Part shown: one piece after another, positions 17,785-27,612 of the stretch
Layout: each line of letters begins with the position of its first letter
Position numbering within the stretch: position 1 is the stretch's first letter
Assembly: GCA_913047695.1 (NCBI GenBank)
Contig: CAJWUI010000004.1
Coordinates: 1 to 64,000 of the forward strand
Origin: an uncultured Bacteroidota bacterium
GTDB lineage: Bacteria > Bacteroidota > Bacteroidia > Flavobacteriales > Flavobacteriaceae
Length of the DNA: 64,000 nucleotides
Direction of reading: 5' to 3'
The notes under the pieces: model-generated
Told to the model about the DNA's origin: nothing
The model's database searches: none
The model's input: only the letters and a program-made list of their open reading frames with translations
Position numbers and translations under genes: made by a program

Positions 17785-17793
17785 GAAACCAAA

Positions 17794-17846
17794 CGAGGAA
17801 GGATTTGACTGATTGCAAACCTCGAAAAAAAAATGCTAAAGCAGTG
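17794..17846 (+). promoter_or_regulatory. SAM-binding riboswitch aptamer, SAM-II/SAM-V type
   Basis: The segment folds as the compact SAM-II/SAM-V pseudoknot. P1 pairs CGAGG (17794-17798) with CCTCG (17820-17824). The L1 loop reads GGATTTGACTGATTGCAAA, close to what I recall of the metX SAM-II aptamer (GATTTAACCGTATTGCAA). P2 pairs TTGC (17813-17816) with GC-T-AA (17835-17839, T bulged) and ACTG (17808-17811) with CAGT (17842-17845). The A-rich linker and AATGCTAAA also match memory of the family. It sits right in front of metK, metY and metX, the expected regulon. Choice between SAM-II and the marine SAM-V variant needs a covariance search. Confidence 0.85.
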
Positions 17847-17890
17847 TTGCTTTTCAAAAACGCTTTAGTTTATTCCTTCCGAAAAAGCAA
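17797..17890 (+). promoter_or_regulatory. riboswitch expression platform with alternative pairings
   Basis: Three further complementarities connect the aptamer to the metK start. GGAAGGA (17797-17803) can pair with TCCTTCC (17874-17880). Nested inside, CTAAAGC (17836-17842) can pair with GCTTTAG (17862-17868). Both use bases needed for P1, L1 or P2, so they would form only without SAM. A third, TTGCTTTT (17847-17854) with AAAAGCAA (17883-17890), would cover the bases just before the ATG at 17895 and is crossed by the other two. This suggests SAM-bound OFF and SAM-free ON states acting on translation. No terminator is visible. The mechanism is inferred from pairing only. Confidence 0.55.
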
Positions 17891-17894
17891 TTTA

Positions 17895-19151
17895 ATGCCA
17901 TATTTTTTTACATCAGAATCTGTAAGTGAAGGTCATCCAGATAAAATTTCTGACCAAATAAGTGATGCTTTACTTGATAACTTTCTGGCATTTGATCCTG
18001 ACAGTAGGGTAGCATGTGAAACACTAGTCACGACCGGCCAAGTTATACTAGCTGGTGAGGTAAAAAGTAAAACTTATCTTGATGTTCAAACTATTGCACG
18101 TAATACTATAAACTCTATTGGGTATACAAAAAGTTCGTATCAATTTAGCGGGGATTCCTGTGGTGTAATTTCATTAATTCACGAACAATCACAAGACATT
18201 AACAGGGGAGTTGGATCTGATCTTAAAGAGAAGCAAGGAGCAGGAGATCAGGGAATTATGTTTGGCTATGCTACAAATGAAACAGACACATATATACCAC
18301 TTGCACTTCACCTTTCCCATCAAATTTTAATTGAGCTTTCCATGCTAAGAAAGGAAAATAATTTAATTAAATATCTGCGTCCCGACTCTAAATCACAAGT
18401 GACAATCGAATACGATGAAAACAATAATCCGTTTCGTGTTGACACGATAGTAATATCAACTCAGCATGATGAGTTTGATAATGATGATAACAGAATGCGA
18501 GAAAAAATAAAATCAGACTTAATTAAAATTTTAATTCCTAGAGTTATAAATAAGCTACCCGATAATTCAAAAAAACTCTTTGGGAATGATATAAAATATC
18601 ATATAAATCCGACTGGAAAGTTCGTAATTGGTGGACCCCATGGAGATACTGGTTTGACGGGCAGAAAAATTATAGTAGATACCTATGGTGGTAAAGGGGC
18701 ACATGGTGGAGGAGCATTTAGCGGCAAGGATCCAAGCAAGGTTGATCGGAGTGCCGCTTATGCTGCAAGGCACATGGCAAAGAATTTGGTTGCTGCTGGA
18801 ATAGCTGATGAAATATTAGTACAAATTAGCTATGCAATAGGAGTAATTGACCCAACTTCTGTAAATATAAACACTTATGGTACCTCGAAACTAAATCTAA
18901 CTGATCAAGAAATTGCAGTTAGGTCTTCAAAACTTTTTAATTTGAGACCTTATGCTATAGAGCAGCGTCTCAAATTAAGAAATCCTATTTACTTTGAATC
19001 TTCTTCTTATGGACATATGGGGCGTCAGCCTCAGAAGGTTAAAAAAACCTTTAAATCTCCTTATAATGGTGAGATAACCAAAGAGGTGGAATTATTTACT
19101 TGGGAAAAACTAGATTATTTAAAATTAATTAAAAATGAATTTCAATTATGA
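17895..19151 (+). CDS. metK: S-adenosylmethionine synthetase
   Basis: MetK makes S-adenosylmethionine from methionine and ATP. The ATG at 17895 gives the normal 418 residues beginning [21 protein letters not shown], where His and Asp of GHPDK contact ATP and metal. [12 protein letters not shown] and [19 protein letters not shown] are the two PROSITE-type signatures. A longer reading from 17805 is rejected because that stretch is the riboswitch leader. The stop overlaps the metY start in ATGA, so the two are translationally coupled. Feedback by its own product through the upstream riboswitch is the predicted regulation. Confidence 0.97.
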
Positions 19152-22597: not shown

Positions 22598-23470
22598 TTA
22601 CCTGTCATCTTCTTTTGATTTTATGCTTTCAACCACAACAGTACCTAGGATTAAAATTCCACCAATAATGTTTTTGATATTTGGCATTTCATTCAAAAAA
22701 ATTATACCTAGAATTATACCAAAAAGCGGTTGAACACTACTTATTATACTCGCAGTACTAATGCTGAAATGCGAGAAACTTGAAAGAAAAAGGGTATGAC
22801 CTAATGCAGTTGTAATAAATCCTAACAGAAGAAGATATGGTAAATCAGATTGAATTTGATAGTCAGAGTAGATTAGAAAGAAAGGTAATAAAAGTAACAT
22901 AACGACAAATAGTTGATAAATCATTTGTATTGATCCATCTGCCATGGAGTTGTGTTTTTTTAAAATTAAGTTCCTTAAAGAATATGCGATAGCAGAAAAT
23001 ATTCCTACTAATAAACCTTGTGTAGCTTTATCATTAAAATCAAAATTAGGTACCAAAAAGAATACACCAATTAAAATTAAAATTCCAAAAATTATATGTC
23101 TTGCTTTTAATTTTACAGGTATAAATAATGGTTCTAAAAAAACTGTAATAATCGGATAAGTAAAAAGCGATAACATACCTACTGTTACATTGCTCCATTG
23201 CAATGCAAAAAAATAAGTAATCCAGTGTAGACCCAAAAATAGTCCGCTAATGAATAAAGCTAAGCCATGATTATTTAAGTCAATTTTAAAAGATTTTTTC
23301 TTTAACCAGGCATAGCAAATTAAAAACAAAATAGCAATTAATGAACGAAACCATATCGTAATTGGAGGAGGGATAGAAATATATCTTCCCAAAGGACCTG
23401 AGGTACTTATAAATAGCATAGCCAGATTTAAAATTACGATATAATAAAGATTGTTATTTTTTAAGTTCAA
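22598..23470 (-). CDS. DMT-family (EamA) metabolite exporter
   Basis: Starting at the TTG at 23470 the protein is 290 residues with about ten hydrophobic helices, the two-EamA-domain layout of drug/metabolite transporters. LYYIVILNLAMLFISTSGPLGRY is the first helix region. WRSL-like IWFRSLIAI follows, and LFLNEMPN..NIIGGILIL is the usual motif of the second domain. An open frame continues upstream to 23578, but it would overlap the promoter and leader peptide of the pheA operon and lacks conserved sequence, so it is rejected. The substrate is unknown; amino acid or metabolite export is typical. It is divergent from the aromatic operon. Confidence 0.85.
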   Translation of the reverse strand: MNLKNNNLYYIVILNLAMLFISTSGPLGRYISIPPPITIWFRSLIAILFLICYAWLKKKSFKIDLNNHGLALFISGLFLGLHWITYFFALQWSNVTVGMLSLFTYPIITVFLEPLFIPVKLKARHIIFGILILIGVFFLVPNFDFNDKATQGLLVGIFSAIAYSLRNLILKKHNSMADGSIQMIYQLFVVMLLLLPFFLIYSDYQIQSDLPYLLLLGFITTALGHTLFLSSFSHFSISTASIISSVQPLFGIILGIIFLNEMPNIKNIIGGILILGTVVVESIKSKEDDR

Positions 23471-23515
23471 ACTGATAAATAAAAAGAAACACAATTTAAA
23501 AAAAAACTTCAAAAA

Positions 23516-23546
23516 TTTGTTTTTGAAAAAAGCAATAGTAATTTTG
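23516..23546 (+). promoter_or_regulatory. promoter of the aromatic amino acid operon
   Basis: TTTG at 23516-23519, a 19-base spacer and TAATTTTG at 23539-23546 match the Bacteroidota promoter consensus. Transcription would begin near 23551-23554, giving a very short 5' leader before the ATG of the Tyr-rich peptide at 23563. Confidence 0.72.
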
Positions 23547-23562
23547 TTAAAAATATTAAACA

Positions 23563-23628
23563 ATGCAAACTTATTCATACTACAATAACTACTATTACTT
23601 CTACGTTGAAGAGATCAGGTCTGTTTAG
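23563..23628 (+). CDS. Tyr-rich leader peptide of the pheA operon
   Basis: A 22-codon frame (ATG at 23563, TAG at 23626-23628) encodes a 21-residue peptide beginning MQTYSYYNN and ending EEIRSV. Tyrosine occupies positions 4, 6, 7, 10, 11, 12 and 14 and phenylalanine position 13, so eight of eleven residues between 4 and 14 are aromatic. It lies between a consensus promoter and an intrinsic terminator in front of four aromatic biosynthesis genes. This is the layout of ribosome-stalling attenuation leaders such as pheL and trpL. When charged tRNA-Tyr is scarce, the ribosome should stall in this run and free the antiterminator at 23613-23619. It is too short for standard gene callers. Confidence 0.88.
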   Translation: MQTYSYYNNYYYFYVEEIRSV

Positions 23629-23661
23629 TATTATGAAAATATTTATTATAAAGTCCTGATT
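23613..23661 (+). promoter_or_regulatory. antiterminator pairing in the pheA leader
   Basis: GATCAGG at 23613-23619, inside the last codons of the leader peptide, can pair with CCTGATT at 23655-23661 (six Watson-Crick pairs and one G-T). CCTGA of the latter is also the 5' arm of the terminator, so the two structures exclude each other. A ribosome finishing the leader covers 23613-23619 and favours termination; one stalled at the earlier Tyr codons leaves it free. Confidence 0.75.
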
Positions 23662-23679
23662 CATTCGGGACTTTTTTTT
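23651..23679 (+). terminator. intrinsic terminator (attenuator) before pheA
   Basis: A nine-base-pair stem with one G-T pair joins AAGTCCTGA (23651-23659) and TCGGGACTT (23665-23673) around a five-base loop. An unbroken run of T follows at 23672-23679. The T run ends four bases before the pheA ATG at 23683, so the element can only act as an attenuator for the operon. It is the clearest GC-containing terminator hairpin noticed in the window. Confidence 0.88.
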
Positions 23680-23682
23680 ATA

Positions 23683-24516
23683 ATGAAAACTAAGAAAAAC
23701 ATAGCAATACAGGGAAGGAAGGGATCATTTCATCATATTGTTGCTGAAAGATATTTTGGAAAAGAACTTTCTTTAATATTATGCGACTCTTTTGATAAAA
23801 CTGTAAGTCAACTTATTCAAGGAGAAGCTGACTATGTGGTAATGGCAATTGAAAATTCAATAGCGGGTTCCATCATACCAAATTATGCATTAATTGATCA
23901 GAATGATTTAAAAATTATTGGAGAATATGGATTAAGCATAAGCCACAATTTTATGGGACTAGAGGGACAAAAAATTAATGATATTAAAGAAGTTTATTCA
24001 CATCCTATGGCATTTTTACAGTGCAAAAGTTTTTTTAACAATTATCCTCATATACGTCTTGTTGAATCAGAGGATACTGCCGAAGAAGCACAAAGAATTT
24101 CTAAAAACAATATAAAAGGCATTGGTGCTGTAGCGAGCAAGGAAGCAGCTGAAATGTATAATTTGTCAATTTTCGCGTCCTCTATCCAGACAATTAAAAA
24201 TAATATAACTCGATTTGTAATTCTTAATAAAGAAGGGAATTTAATTTCAAATGAAAATATCAATAAAGCTGCTCTTAAATTTATTTTAGATCATCAAAGA
24301 GGCAGCTTAGCAGCAATATTGAATGTTATGAGTGATTGTCAGCTCAATTTAACAAAAATTCAATCCTTGCCTGTAATTGAGACACCTGGTAAATATGCTT
24401 TTTTTGTAGATGTTACTTTTGAAGAGTTTGAGCATTACTTTAAGGCAAAAAAATTAATTTCAATAATGGCATCCGAGTTTAAAATTCTTGGGGAATTTTC
24501 CCTGCATCAAAAATGA
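23683..24516 (+). CDS. pheA: prephenate dehydratase
   Basis: The 277-residue enzyme converts prephenate to phenylpyruvate in phenylalanine synthesis. The catalytic part begins IAIQGRKGSFHHIVAE and continues with DYVVMAIENSIAGS and VYSHPMAFLQC. NITRFVIL carries the Thr-Arg-Phe active-site motif near residue 175. A C-terminal ACT regulatory domain follows from about residue 195, with RGSLAAILNVMSD and LTKIQSLPV being the usual Phe-binding segments. It is monofunctional, with chorismate mutase supplied by the fusion gene at 26527. The first gene of the operon, it starts right after the attenuator and overlaps the next gene by four bases. Confidence 0.95.
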   Translation: MKTKKNIAIQGRKGSFHHIVAERYFGKELSLILCDSFDKTVSQLIQGEADYVVMAIENSIAGSIIPNYALIDQNDLKIIGEYGLSISHNFMGLEGQKINDIKEVYSHPMAFLQCKSFFNNYPHIRLVESEDTAEEAQRISKNNIKGIGAVASKEAAEMYNLSIFASSIQTIKNNITRFVILNKEGNLISNENINKAALKFILDHQRGSLAAILNVMSDCQLNLTKIQSLPVIETPGKYAFFVDVTFEEFEHYFKAKKLISIMASEFKILGEFSLHQK

Positions 24517-25661
24517 AAACGGCTAAAAGATTAAATAATATAAAAGAATATTATTTCTCAAGAAAGCTGAGAGAGGTAGGAGAAATGATAAAGGATGGAA
24601 AACCAATAATTAATATGGGAATTGGTAGTCCAGATTTGGATCCTCACCCTGATATAGTAAATGCTCTTGAAAAATCAATACTCGAACCTAAGGCCCACAT
24701 GTACCAAAACTATCAGGGAATTCCAGAACTTAGAAAATCTATAGCAGAATTTTACAAAACTTATTATGATGTAGATTTGGATCCAGATTCACAGGTTCTC
24801 CCACTCATGGGCTCTAAGGAAGGAATAATGCATATATCTATGGCTTATCTTAATCCCGGGGATGAAGTTTTGATCCCTAATCCTGGTTATCCAACTTATG
24901 CATCTGTAACCAGACTAATGCAAGCTAGAGCTGTTACATATGATTTAAAACCTTCTAATAATTGGCAACCGGATTTTAAAGAATTGGAAAAATTAGATAC
25001 TACAAAAGTAAAAATCATGTGGCTAAACTATCCTCATATGCCAACTGGGGCTGAATTTTTAGAATCCACGTTTAGTTTCTTAGTTAAATGGGCTTATGAG
25101 CGTAATATTCTTTTAGTAAATGATAATCCATATAGTTTTATTCTAACTAAAAAGCCAAAAAGTATATTGTCCATACCTGGTGCTGAGGCAGTTGCAGTTG
25201 AATTAAATTCTTTAAGTAAGTCGTTTAATATGGCTGGTTGGAGAATAGGAATGTTGTCTGGAAAAAAATCAGTTATAAGTGAAGTACTTAAAGTTAAAAG
25301 TAATATGGATTCAGGAATGTTTTTTGGTATTCAAAAAGGTGCTATAGCAGCATTAAAAATGAAACCAGAATGGTTTGAAAAATTAAATGAAATCTATAAT
25401 AAAAGAAAGGAGCTTATCTTAATATTAATAAATAAAATTGGAGCCAAAATTGAATCCAAAAGTGTAGGTTTATTTTTATGGGCTAAAATTCCTCAAGGCA
25501 ATACTAGTGCAGAGGAATTTATAGATAAAATACTTTATGAAAAAAATATATTTATAACACCAGGAACTGTGTTTGGTTTACAAGGTGAAGGCTATATTCG
25601 TTTTTCACTTTGTGTTCCAGAAGCAAATATAATTGAAGCTATAAATCGTTTTAAATCATGA
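24513..25661 (+). CDS. class I aminotransferase (aromatic amino acid branch)
   Basis: The 382-residue PLP enzyme has the class I/II fold. INMGIGSPDLDPHPD lies at the N-terminus, GSKEGIMHISMAYLNPGDEVLIPNPGYP at the cofactor site, and NDNPYSFI holds the PLP-contacting Asp and Tyr. SLSKSFNMAGWRIG contains the Schiff-base lysine near residue 233, and RFSLCVPE has the substrate-carboxylate Arg. Its place between pheA and tyrA, with four-base overlaps on both sides, indicates that it transaminates phenylpyruvate and hydroxyphenylpyruvate (or prephenate). General aspartate activity cannot be excluded. Confidence 0.92.
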   Translation: MKTAKRLNNIKEYYFSRKLREVGEMIKDGKPIINMGIGSPDLDPHPDIVNALEKSILEPKAHMYQNYQGIPELRKSIAEFYKTYYDVDLDPDSQVLPLMGSKEGIMHISMAYLNPGDEVLIPNPGYPTYASVTRLMQARAVTYDLKPSNNWQPDFKELEKLDTTKVKIMWLNYPHMPTGAEFLESTFSFLVKWAYERNILLVNDNPYSFILTKKPKSILSIPGAEAVAVELNSLSKSFNMAGWRIGMLSGKKSVISEVLKVKSNMDSGMFFGIQKGAIAALKMKPEWFEKLNEIYNKRKELILILINKIGAKIESKSVGLFLWAKIPQGNTSAEEFIDKILYEKNIFITPGTVFGLQGEGYIRFSLCVPEANIIEAINRFKS

Positions 25662-26506
25662 AAATAGGTATAATTGGACTTGGATTAATTGGAGGTTCTT
25701 TTGCTTTATCAGCAAAAAAAAGCATACCAGATTGTAGCTTATATGGAACGGATAACAATCCTGTCCACCAAAAAGAGGCTTATCAACTAGGAATTATAAA
25801 TAAATCCTTGACACCTTCAAACTACTCACAAATGGATGTAATTATTTTAGCTGTACCTGTCAACGCAGTCTTAGAAATAATTTTACCACTTTTAGACCAA
25901 ATAAATGATAATGCACTTTTAATTGATGTTGGCTCAACTAAGGAAATAATATGTGAAAAAGTAAAACTGCATTCTAAGCGTAATCAGTTTTTAGCAACAC
26001 ACCCTATTGCAGGTACTGAGTTTTCTGGACCTTCAGCTGCAAATGAAAATCTATATAAAGGAAAAGCTCAAATTTTGTGTGAAGTAAATAAAACAAGACC
26101 TGATCTTTTGGAATGGGCAGTCCAATGGTTTAAAAATATGGAAATGAGAATTCAAGAAATGGGCCCTATTGAACACGATCAACATATAGCATATGTCTCT
26201 CATATTTCTCATATTTCTTCATTTATGCTTGGTAAAACTGTAATGGAAAAAGAAAAAGATGAAAAAGCAATTTTTGATATGGCTGGAAGTGGTTTTGCCT
26301 CTACTGTTAGATTAGCAAAAAGCTCTCCCTCTATGTGGGCCCCAATTTTTATGCAAAACAAAAAAAATATTTTGGATGTACTAACAGAATATATTTCAAA
26401 TTTGGAAGAATTTAAGCAATTGATGCAGGCAAACGATTACGAGTCAATATATCAAAAAATTGAGCATACGAATACTATTAAAAGAATTTTAGAAGGAATA
26501 AAATAA
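25658..26506 (+). CDS. tyrA: prephenate dehydrogenase
   Basis: The enzyme oxidatively decarboxylates prephenate (or arogenate) on the way to tyrosine. The 282 residues open with a Rossmann motif IGIIGLGLIGGSFA. They continue with DVGSTKEIIC and THPIAGTEFSGP (catalytic His region at about residue 115), then HDQHIAYVSHISH with the second conserved histidine. It ends without an ACT domain, so end-product control may rest mostly on the transcriptional attenuator. It overlaps the aminotransferase gene by four bases and lies 20 bases before the DAHP synthase gene. Confidence 0.95.
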   Translation: MKIGIIGLGLIGGSFALSAKKSIPDCSLYGTDNNPVHQKEAYQLGIINKSLTPSNYSQMDVIILAVPVNAVLEIILPLLDQINDNALLIDVGSTKEIICEKVKLHSKRNQFLATHPIAGTEFSGPSAANENLYKGKAQILCEVNKTRPDLLEWAVQWFKNMEMRIQEMGPIEHDQHIAYVSHISHISSFMLGKTVMEKEKDEKAIFDMAGSGFASTVRLAKSSPSMWAPIFMQNKKNILDVLTEYISNLEEFKQLMQANDYESIYQKIEHTNTIKRILEGIK

Positions 26507-26526: not shown

Positions 26527-27612
26527 ATGGAAAATAAAAAGGATATGCGCAAGTGGTTAAATGACTTTGAACTTGATCATCCCCTAGTTATAGGCGGCCC
26601 TTGTAGCGCCGAGACAGAAGAACAAGTGCTCAAGGTTGCAAACCAGTTGAAAGATAGTGATGTTACTGTATTTAGAGCAGGAATTTGGAAACCAAGAACA
26701 CGCCCTGGTATGTTTGAGGGTGTAGGAGCAATAGGATTGAATTGGCTAAAAAAAGTAAAACAACAAACAGGATTATTAACAGCTACAGAGGTTGCAAATA
26801 AAAATCATGTAAAATTAGCTATTGAAAATGGCATTGATATATTGTGGATTGGAGCTCGATCTACAGTTAGTCCTTTCATTATGCAAGAATTAGCAGATGC
26901 TTTAGAAGGAACTGAAAAAATTGTTTTGGTAAAAAATCCAGTAAATCCCGACTTAGCACTTTGGTTAGGAGGCGTTGAACGTCTGCATAGTGCAAAGATT
27001 AGAAAGTTAGGTCTAATTCATCGTGGATTTTCAACTTATGAGAAAACCAAATATCGAAATAACCCTGAGTGGCAAATAGCAATTGAGGTAAAAAATCGTT
27101 TTCCCGACCTTCCAATGATATGTGACCCTTCGCATATATCAGGACGTAGAGATTTGATTTTTGATATTTCACAAACAGCTTTAGATTTGAACTTTGATGG
27201 ATTGATGATAGAATCTCATTGGGACCCAGATAATGCTTGGAGTGATGCTAAACAGCAGGTAACTCCTTCGCGTTTAATCGAGATTATGCGAGATTTAAAA
27301 GTAAGAAATAAAACAACTGATGAACAGGCATACAAACATAAGCTAGGTTCTCTAAGAGCTCAAATTGATGTAGCTGATCAAACACTTCTTGATGCCTTAG
27401 GGAAGCGTATGAAAATTGCAAAGGAAATAGGTTTATTGAAAAGAGACAATAATGTTGCAGTTCTACAAAATAAGAGATGGAACGAAATATTAGGTAAAAT
27501 GATCTTAGAGGGACATGAGCGTGAATTGTCTGAAGAATTTATACTAAGAGTATTTAAAGCAATTCATCAAGAATCAATTAACAAACAGGACAAAATTTTA
27601 AATAAAAATTAA
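26527..27612 (+). CDS. bifunctional DAHP synthase / chorismate mutase
   Basis: This 361-residue fusion carries out the first step of the shikimate pathway and the branch step to prephenate. The N-terminal DAHP synthase (about 1-255) shows VIGGPCSAET, FRAGIWKPRTRPGMFEG, WIGARSTVSPF and MICDPSHISGRRD, all metal or PEP contacts of the type I-beta/KDOPS-like class. A chorismate mutase helical domain (about 268-355) follows: LGSLRAQIDVADQTLLDALGKRM and ALGKRMKIAKEIGLLK. This order (synthase first) is common in Bacteroidota. As last core gene of the operon it puts flux entry under the same Tyr-sensing attenuator. Confidence 0.95.
   Translation: MENKKDMRKWLNDFELDHPLVIGGPCSAETEEQVLKVANQLKDSDVTVFRAGIWKPRTRPGMFEGVGAIGLNWLKKVKQQTGLLTATEVANKNHVKLAIENGIDILWIGARSTVSPFIMQELADALEGTEKIVLVKNPVNPDLALWLGGVERLHSAKIRKLGLIHRGFSTYEKTKYRNNPEWQIAIEVKNRFPDLPMICDPSHISGRRDLIFDISQTALDLNFDGLMIESHWDPDNAWSDAKQQVTPSRLIEIMRDLKVRNKTTDEQAYKHKLGSLRAQIDVADQTLLDALGKRMKIAKEIGLLKRDNNVAVLQNKRWNEILGKMILEGHERELSEEFILRVFKAIHQESINKQDKILNKN

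Follow-up and report, generated by a model that had tools for sequence, protein, structure and literature searches.

The operon for phenylalanine and tyrosine synthesis in a 64,000-nucleotide stretch of DNA (hereafter the window) from an uncultured Flavobacteriaceae bacterium is preceded by a short open reading frame (ORF) crowded with Tyr codons, which raises the questions of whether this ORF encodes the leader peptide of an attenuator and which amino acid such a leader would sense. The structure, conservation and codon content of the region suggest that the locus is very probably a trp-type attenuator, in which a translating ribosome controls transcription and Tyr codons serve as the main sensor.

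Promoter and operon

A sequence-only reading had assigned four genes to the operon, and their identity was confirmed by Pfam. The promoter and the genes are located as follows:

23516–23519, + strand: upstream promoter element TTTG (−33-type); 19-base spacing to the −7 box
23539–23546, + strand: −7 box TAATTTTG (TAnnTTTG consensus); transcription start expected at approximately 23551–23552
23683–24516, + strand: pheA, prephenate dehydratase, first controlled gene (PF00800)
24513–25661, + strand: class I/II aminotransferase (PF00155, Aminotran_1_2)
25658–26506, + strand: tyrA, prephenate dehydrogenase (PF02153 and PF20463, PDH_N/PDH_C)
26527–27612, + strand: DAHP synthase–chorismate mutase fusion (PF00793 and PF01817, DAHP_synth_1 and CM_2)

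As in trp-type systems, the genes downstream of the leader make the amino acid that would be sensed; here they cover both the Phe and the Tyr branch. The pheA product carries the PDT domain, and its ACT match is under the cut-off of that family. The consensus promoter reported earlier holds in its Bacteroidetes form but not as a sigma-70-type promoter: the scan for the latter performed at chance level (10 found versus 11.5 expected), and the Bacteroidetes consensus was used instead. Section 14 of PMC6847099 places the −7 consensus TAnnTTTG 4–5 nt from the start site, thus transcription is predicted to start near 23551. All 32 genus loci with sufficient upstream sequence retain the TTTG-N19-TAATTTTG form, and the contig of the 33rd locus (L111) shows the −7 box only.

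Two neighbouring annotations are recorded here. The mechanical start of a 326-aa ORF on the minus strand (22598–23578), membrane-protein-like by eye, crosses the leader promoter, and its true start probably lies further downstream on that strand. Elsewhere in the window, a SAM-II riboswitch (RF01726, 74.9 bits) at 17789–17849 overlaps the mechanical start of ORF 17805–19151, which by eye resembles an S-adenosylmethionine synthetase.

The leader ORF

The leader region contains the following elements:

23563–23628, + strand: leader peptide ORF, MQTYSYYNNYYYFYVEEIRSV followed by a stop; 21 codons, 7 Tyr and 1 Phe
23574–23583, + strand: strand 1, UUCAUA(C)UAC, from the last base of codon 4 to Tyr codons 6–7; pairs with 23628–23637
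23598–23611, + strand: small hairpin CUUC-UACGUU-GAAG containing the single Phe codon (fold and genus alignment)
23613–23622, + strand: strand 2, GATCAGGTCT, the antiterminator 5′ arm in the final leader codons
23628–23637, + strand: 3′ partner of strand 1, its first base being the G of the UAG stop
23650–23661, + strand: strand 3, AAAGTCCTGATT, common to antiterminator and terminator
23665–23679, + strand: strand 4 with the T8 run, completing the intrinsic terminator

The 21-residue frame with seven Tyr and one Phe was found exactly as first described, the Tyr codons being numbers 4, 6, 7, 10, 11, 12 and 14 and the Phe codon number 13. Its Tyr count is the highest among 370 short ATG ORFs in the AT-rich window, and five of the 370 have a higher aromatic share. 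Since the aromatic composition is unexceptional and the ORF is conserved, the proof lies in conservation and not in composition. In the 33-row genus alignment, minority letters in codons 5–15 fall mostly on the third position (104, compared with 55 on the second and 24 on the first). Codons 2–15 contain no in-frame stop in any of the 33 rows and the sole indel before the stop column is one codon long, while the two other frames are interrupted by stops in 32 and 27 of the 33 rows. Judged from this alignment, the leader ORF evolves as coding DNA, and a short ORF rich in codons for the pathway products is predicted to be translated. In L011, an early UAA terminates the peptide ahead of strand 2, and the bases GGGACTTTGTAG are nonetheless kept, which indicates that the antiterminator arm is preserved as RNA and not as peptide. 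The antiterminator arm would account for the common C-terminal Arg-Thr-Leu of the leader peptides.

Terminator, antiterminator and protector helix

The terminator hairpin (23650–23674) was found by scanning to have 10 pairs, one of them G-U, and is followed by T8 at 23672–23679; its fold of −13.2 kcal/mol (z −6.33) was equalled by none of 200 shuffles. The hairpin and the eight-T run of the sequence-only reading thus stand, but with 10 pairs instead of 9, and the T run ends three, not four, bases before the pheA ATG at 23683. Within the leader, GATCAGG (23613–23619) pairs with CCTGATT, and this antiterminator, proposed earlier as exclusive with the terminator, is indeed the minimum-energy fold once the terminator 3′ arm is removed. 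Its stability against shuffles depends on the segment folded: −16.5 kcal/mol for 23563–23664, with a z of only −1.40 and 16/200 shuffles equalling it, and −13.3 kcal/mol for 23605–23664, with a z of −2.54 and 2/200 shuffles. In the fold of the full leader, strand 1 pairs with the stop region and the terminator forms as well (−24.2 kcal/mol, equalled by 2/200 shuffles); strand 1 was defined by this minimum-energy fold and by genus helix columns 19–25/65–71. All three competing helices of the trp-type design are present: a predicted intrinsic terminator between leader and pheA, a mutually exclusive antiterminator whose arm lies in the final leader codons, and a protector helix 1:2 seen in both the fold and the genus alignment.

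The covariation sought in the terminator and antiterminator hairpins was absent within the genus. Pairing is intact in 99.7% of the 330 alignment cells of the terminator and in 92.4% of the 264 cells that make up the common antiterminator register, each with zero two-sided changes; because the arms are almost invariant in the genus, neither helix can give a covariation signal there. In the window's clade, mismatches break the genus-wide register AGGACTTT:AAAGTCCT, and the shifted GATCAGG:CCTGATT pairs instead. For helix 1:2, counted together with the inner hairpin, 95.3% of 363 cells are paired, and seven cells are two-sided. For helix 1:2, the pairing value, the covariation score and the number of two-sided cells are each reached by 1/500 shuffles, and the weaker measures by 28/500 (pairs with two-sided change) and 284/500 (further pair types), bearing in mind that related rows can outscore shuffles without any structure. 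Alignment codons 7–8, usually UAC/UAU (Tyr), pair in the genus with GUAGUA, which holds the stop codon, and four rows show a changed third base in codon 7 together with one in the stop codon (UAU/UAA in three, UUU/UAA in L019). By this alignment evidence, the protector helix formed by the Tyr codons and the stop-codon region covaries.

The sequences themselves show the ORF, that it evolves as coding DNA, and that the competing helices are present and conserved; from this we infer stalling and termination in the following order. Transcription would begin near 23551, and translation of the 21-codon leader would follow immediately. If charged tRNA-Tyr is plentiful, the ribosome would reach the UAG stop and cover strand 2 (23613–23622), whereupon strands 3 and 4 would pair and RNA polymerase would stop at the T run before pheA. 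With charged tRNA-Tyr in short supply, the ribosome would stall on the Tyr codons (4–14) and leave strand 2 free to pair with strand 3, which would block the terminator and allow all four operon genes, from pheA to the DAHP synthase–chorismate mutase fusion, to be read. In untranslated RNA, strand 1 paired with the stop region and the terminator would together keep the operon off. Given the size of ribosome footprints, the leader geometry would fit the trp scheme: a ribosome at the stop codon would cover strand 2, and one stalled on codons 10–12 would leave 23613–23622 free.

Conservation in the genus and beyond

Relatives carrying the operon were searched for a missing aromatic ORF or terminator, a finding that would have spoken against the attenuator. 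The genus set comprised 37 genomes including that of the window, and in the 33 with a pheA match both the leader ORF and the terminator were kept without exception; the genomes lacking a pheA match (G011, G015, G017 and G032) are 57–85% complete. A covariance model built from the 33 genus leaders was run against 38 genus genomes and matched the 33 from which it had been built, 32 of them once and G005 twice. The second, weaker match (G005:C37:280-405) lies beside a second pheA fragment and may represent contamination or a strain mixture. In every one of the 33 genus rows, 8 or 9 T come directly after the hairpin; the distance from this run to pheA is 3 bases in the window's clade and mostly 7–8 elsewhere (some starts were extrapolated).

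Outside the genus, the best 80 of 203 pheA loci included three from the genus (L002–L004) and 77 others, mostly sphingobacterial (Mucilaginibacter, which belongs to the Sphingobacteriales, Pedobacter and Sphingobacterium), and an aromatic leader ORF precedes pheA in 76 of these 77. A phylum sample of 198 genomes drawn evenly gave 44 matching rows in the same family, order or class; among the 31 loci examined, the leader was found ahead of pheA in 14/14 of the same family and in 12/15 of other members of the class, 10 of the latter by script and two by eye (L171 with a 40-residue ORF, L179 with a GTG start). At the order level, 7 of 8 genomes outside family f5 with a pheA match have the leader (L113, L115, L116, L118–L121). 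Leaderless pheA loci outside the genus were thus few: L092 among the 77, L114 at the order level outside f5, both f5 genomes examined (leader in 0/2), and L173, L177 and L184 in the class, where no aromatic leader ORF was found and pheA seems to lie directly after an upstream coding stretch. In 450 bases upstream of pheA at 30 further loci (29 outside the class and G040), there was no convincing leader and two weak ORFs; these are the 30 best-scoring of 172 matching genomes and not a fair sample.

The arms differ between families (GAGGCTTT with AAGCCTC, GAGCGGGA with TCCCGCT, GCCGGGACT with AGTCCCGGC), and the three-way complementarity is retained despite this in the cases inspected. Among 125 distinct leaders, 105 have strands 2 and 3 that are more complementary, in an ungapped score, than 95% of 300 shuffles, and 84 have strands more complementary than 99%; the corresponding numbers were 22 and 12 of 31 in the genus and 83 and 72 of 94 outside it. 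The 95% level was not exceeded in 20 of the 125, and two of the four leaders of the window's clade miss it (L002, 19/300; L003, 60/300). The input was 154 loci, 11 of them without a leader by script (including L171 and L179, which have one by eye); identical arm pairs were dropped before the count (duplicates include L031–L033, identical with L002–L004, L122/L168/L142, L123/L169 and L093/L176), and for L119 and L120 the script used the wrong hairpin.

L121 (G059) carries three aromatic leader ORFs in series before pheA, each followed by a terminator-like hairpin (578–714, 728–857 and 873–994; MKHITENKAFSFEAFFFNRKTQA, MNNLVSTFRFFGFFFFRKEGAMS and MNQNTQQNFSFFGFFFFKWKSEAVD), and would apparently be a three-stage attenuator. 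A second match of the leader model R1 in L118 (618–733) was rejected, as by eye it resembles an ordinary gene end with a terminator.

Tyr and Phe codons of the leaders

The leaders as a whole are mixed. The mean numbers of Phe and Tyr codons in distinct leaders are 3.3 and 5.0 in the genus, 3.7 and 4.4 in the non-genus loci among the best 80 of 203, 5.8 and 2.9 in the same family, 4.4 and 4.1 in other class members, and 5.6 and 2.7 at the order level, giving mean Tyr shares of 0.61, 0.55 and 0.33 for the first three groups. Among 115 distinct leaders, L121 is the only one without Tyr and none lacks Phe. The window's leader has the top Tyr share (7:1, tied with L004), and together with its three closest relatives it forms the Tyr extreme of the 115 (7:1, 7:1, 6:1 and 6:1). 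A pheA tree (34 rows of 36 given, 31 of them from the 33 genus loci) places the leaders with no more than one Phe on a single branch (100/99), among genus leaders with two to five Phe.

Alignment codon 14 (Phe13 of the window) is Phe in 33 of 33 genus rows and lies inside the CUUC:GAAG stem. Two codons that belong to no conserved stem, 5 and 11, are Phe in 22 and 25 of the 33 rows and Tyr in all four members of the window's clade. Compared with the genus majority, this clade shows two Phe-to-Tyr positions and one Phe-to-Ser. Since Phe is confined to a conserved stem, the sensor codons of the clade outside the stems are Tyr, Ser or Cys and none is Phe, from which we infer that Tyr, rather than Phe, would be the dominant signal in this clade. 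According to a published model, attenuator sensitivity increases with the share of regulatory codons (PMC1183508), so a purer Tyr run should respond more sharply to Tyr. Alignment Tyr codons 7–8 are also held by pairing, so that some of the surplus of Tyr may reflect a constraint on the RNA. The earlier proposal that low tRNA-Tyr charging turns on the operon is thus supported as to the attenuator design; as the wider leader family mixes Phe and Tyr, sensing of Tyr alone would be specific to the window's clade. Phenylalanine hydroxylase was considered as a reason for a Tyr-only sensor and rejected, as PF00351 has no match in the window's genome (89% complete); the scan of 17 genus genomes, from a set of 38, gave none over the cut-off and one match below it in G034.

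Taken as a whole, it is close to an even call whether we are dealing with a class-wide Phe/Tyr-sensing leader, in which the Tyr codons act both as sensor and as the strand pairing with the stop region, and which in the window's clade would have shifted to a Tyr-specific attenuator of a joint Phe/Tyr operon.

Alternative explanations

The most serious alternative, to which we give an appreciable, somewhat less than even probability, is that the same attenuator senses a shortage of either Phe or Tyr and that the Tyr excess of the clade is drift or a by-product of RNA pairing. Both amino acids are made by the operon, one base separates Phe from Tyr codons, alignment Tyr codons 7–8 sit in helix 1:2, and the mean Tyr shares and the near absence of leaders devoid of Tyr or Phe fit such a dual sensor. 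However, the two positions outside the stems have turned to Tyr in all four members of the clade, the sole remaining Phe is stem-bound and invariant, and one Phe in eight would be a weak Phe signal if sensitivity follows codon share (PMC1183508).

Other explanations leave out attenuation by a stalled ribosome. The hairpin ends eight bases before the pheA start and with the T run adjoins it, and F. johnsoniae start sites are described in PMC6847099 as sensitive to mRNA structure; hence the hairpin might hide the pheA start and be opened by leader translation, with termination of minor importance. As the T run is constant (8 or 9 in all 33 genus rows) and its distance to pheA varies (3 versus mostly 7–8), a terminator is expected rather than a start-site mask, and we consider translational control improbable. 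A structured 5′ element is also what a riboswitch, a T-box or a protein-bound leader with an incidental ORF would show, but no Rfam family, including T-boxes and riboswitches, reaches the gathering score at the leader, and the window has no T-box match. The best weak matches are themselves leader-peptide attenuators (Thr_leader, RF00506, 26.7 bits; Phe_leader, RF01859, 21.1 bits; both below the cut-off of 55), and the coding-type evolution of the ORF and the aromatic block in 33/33 genus rows make such an element very unlikely. Finally, short aromatic ORFs are common in the AT-rich window, as the five of 370 with a higher share show, but chance placement of one ahead of an ordinary terminator is refuted by conservation, since every one of the 33 genus genomes with a pheA match keeps the ORF and other families have it too; the probability of chance is practically negligible.

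Relation to known leaders and significance

In E. coli, trpL and pheL have a short leader ORF in which codons for the end product are clustered, strands that pair as 1:2, 2:3 and 3:4, and a U run before the first gene. The leader ORF, the three pairings and the U run recur in the window; unlike in E. coli, Tyr is the dominant codon, the operon covers both the Phe and the Tyr branch, the Tyr codons pair with the stop-codon region, and the promoter is of the Bacteroidetes type. For F. psychrophilum, the accessible text of PMC9723704 describes structured 5′ elements ahead of both pheA and hisG, conserved in other Flavobacteriaceae and without an Rfam hit, and strong clues for leader-peptide attenuation at amino-acid operons. 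The pheA element has the same gene position as the window's leader, but no peptide, Phe/Tyr codons or mechanism is given for pheA itself in that text, and in the present set Phe prevails in leaders of the same family (mean 5.8 F, 2.9 Y) and Tyr in that of the window. A search of the open literature by title, abstract start or passages (subscription literature lay outside its scope) found no description of a Tyr-dominated or Phe/Tyr leader. The statement that no case was described in flavobacteria is correct only in part, as it overlooks the structured pheA 5′ element and the leader-peptide clues of PMC9723704.

Two further RNA elements were compared. The Bacteroid-trp motif (RF01692), described in PMC2864571 as a predicted cis-regulatory RNA in Bacteroidetes and in this respect like the window's leader, is linked to trp genes by its name. 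Rfam scans place it neither at the window's leader nor in the stretch around trpE in the same genome. T-boxes sense tRNA charging by binding the tRNA directly, without a translated leader. PMC1262725 names phenylalanine among attenuator-controlled pathways and tyrosine under T-boxes; tyrosine T-boxes resemble the window's leader in controlling tyrosine genes at the RNA level.

The same genome contains a His leader candidate (MKTLLHHIHQFENCSNEK followed by a stop, with HHIH) and a 12-pair terminator before hisG (L185, 2232–2122, minus strand), and a Trp leader candidate (MKNFICNISWWYAKQQILV followed by a stop, with Trp-Trp) and a 12-pair terminator before trpE (L187, 2110–2000, minus strand). 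Both candidates count in favour of the attenuator reading of the aromatic operon. Neither candidate has an Rfam match, and there is no clear leader upstream of ilvD; at homoserine dehydrogenase, an open frame occupies all of the upstream sequence in the stretch examined.

Leader-peptide attenuation requires a ribosome close behind the RNA polymerase. Bacteroidetes naturally lack Shine–Dalgarno sequences (PMC6847099), consequently a working attenuator would directly probe transcription–translation coupling in this phylum. As the leader series extends from all Phe (L121) to nearly all Tyr (the window) within a similar RNA frame, it would make the relation between codon choice and specificity testable by comparison.
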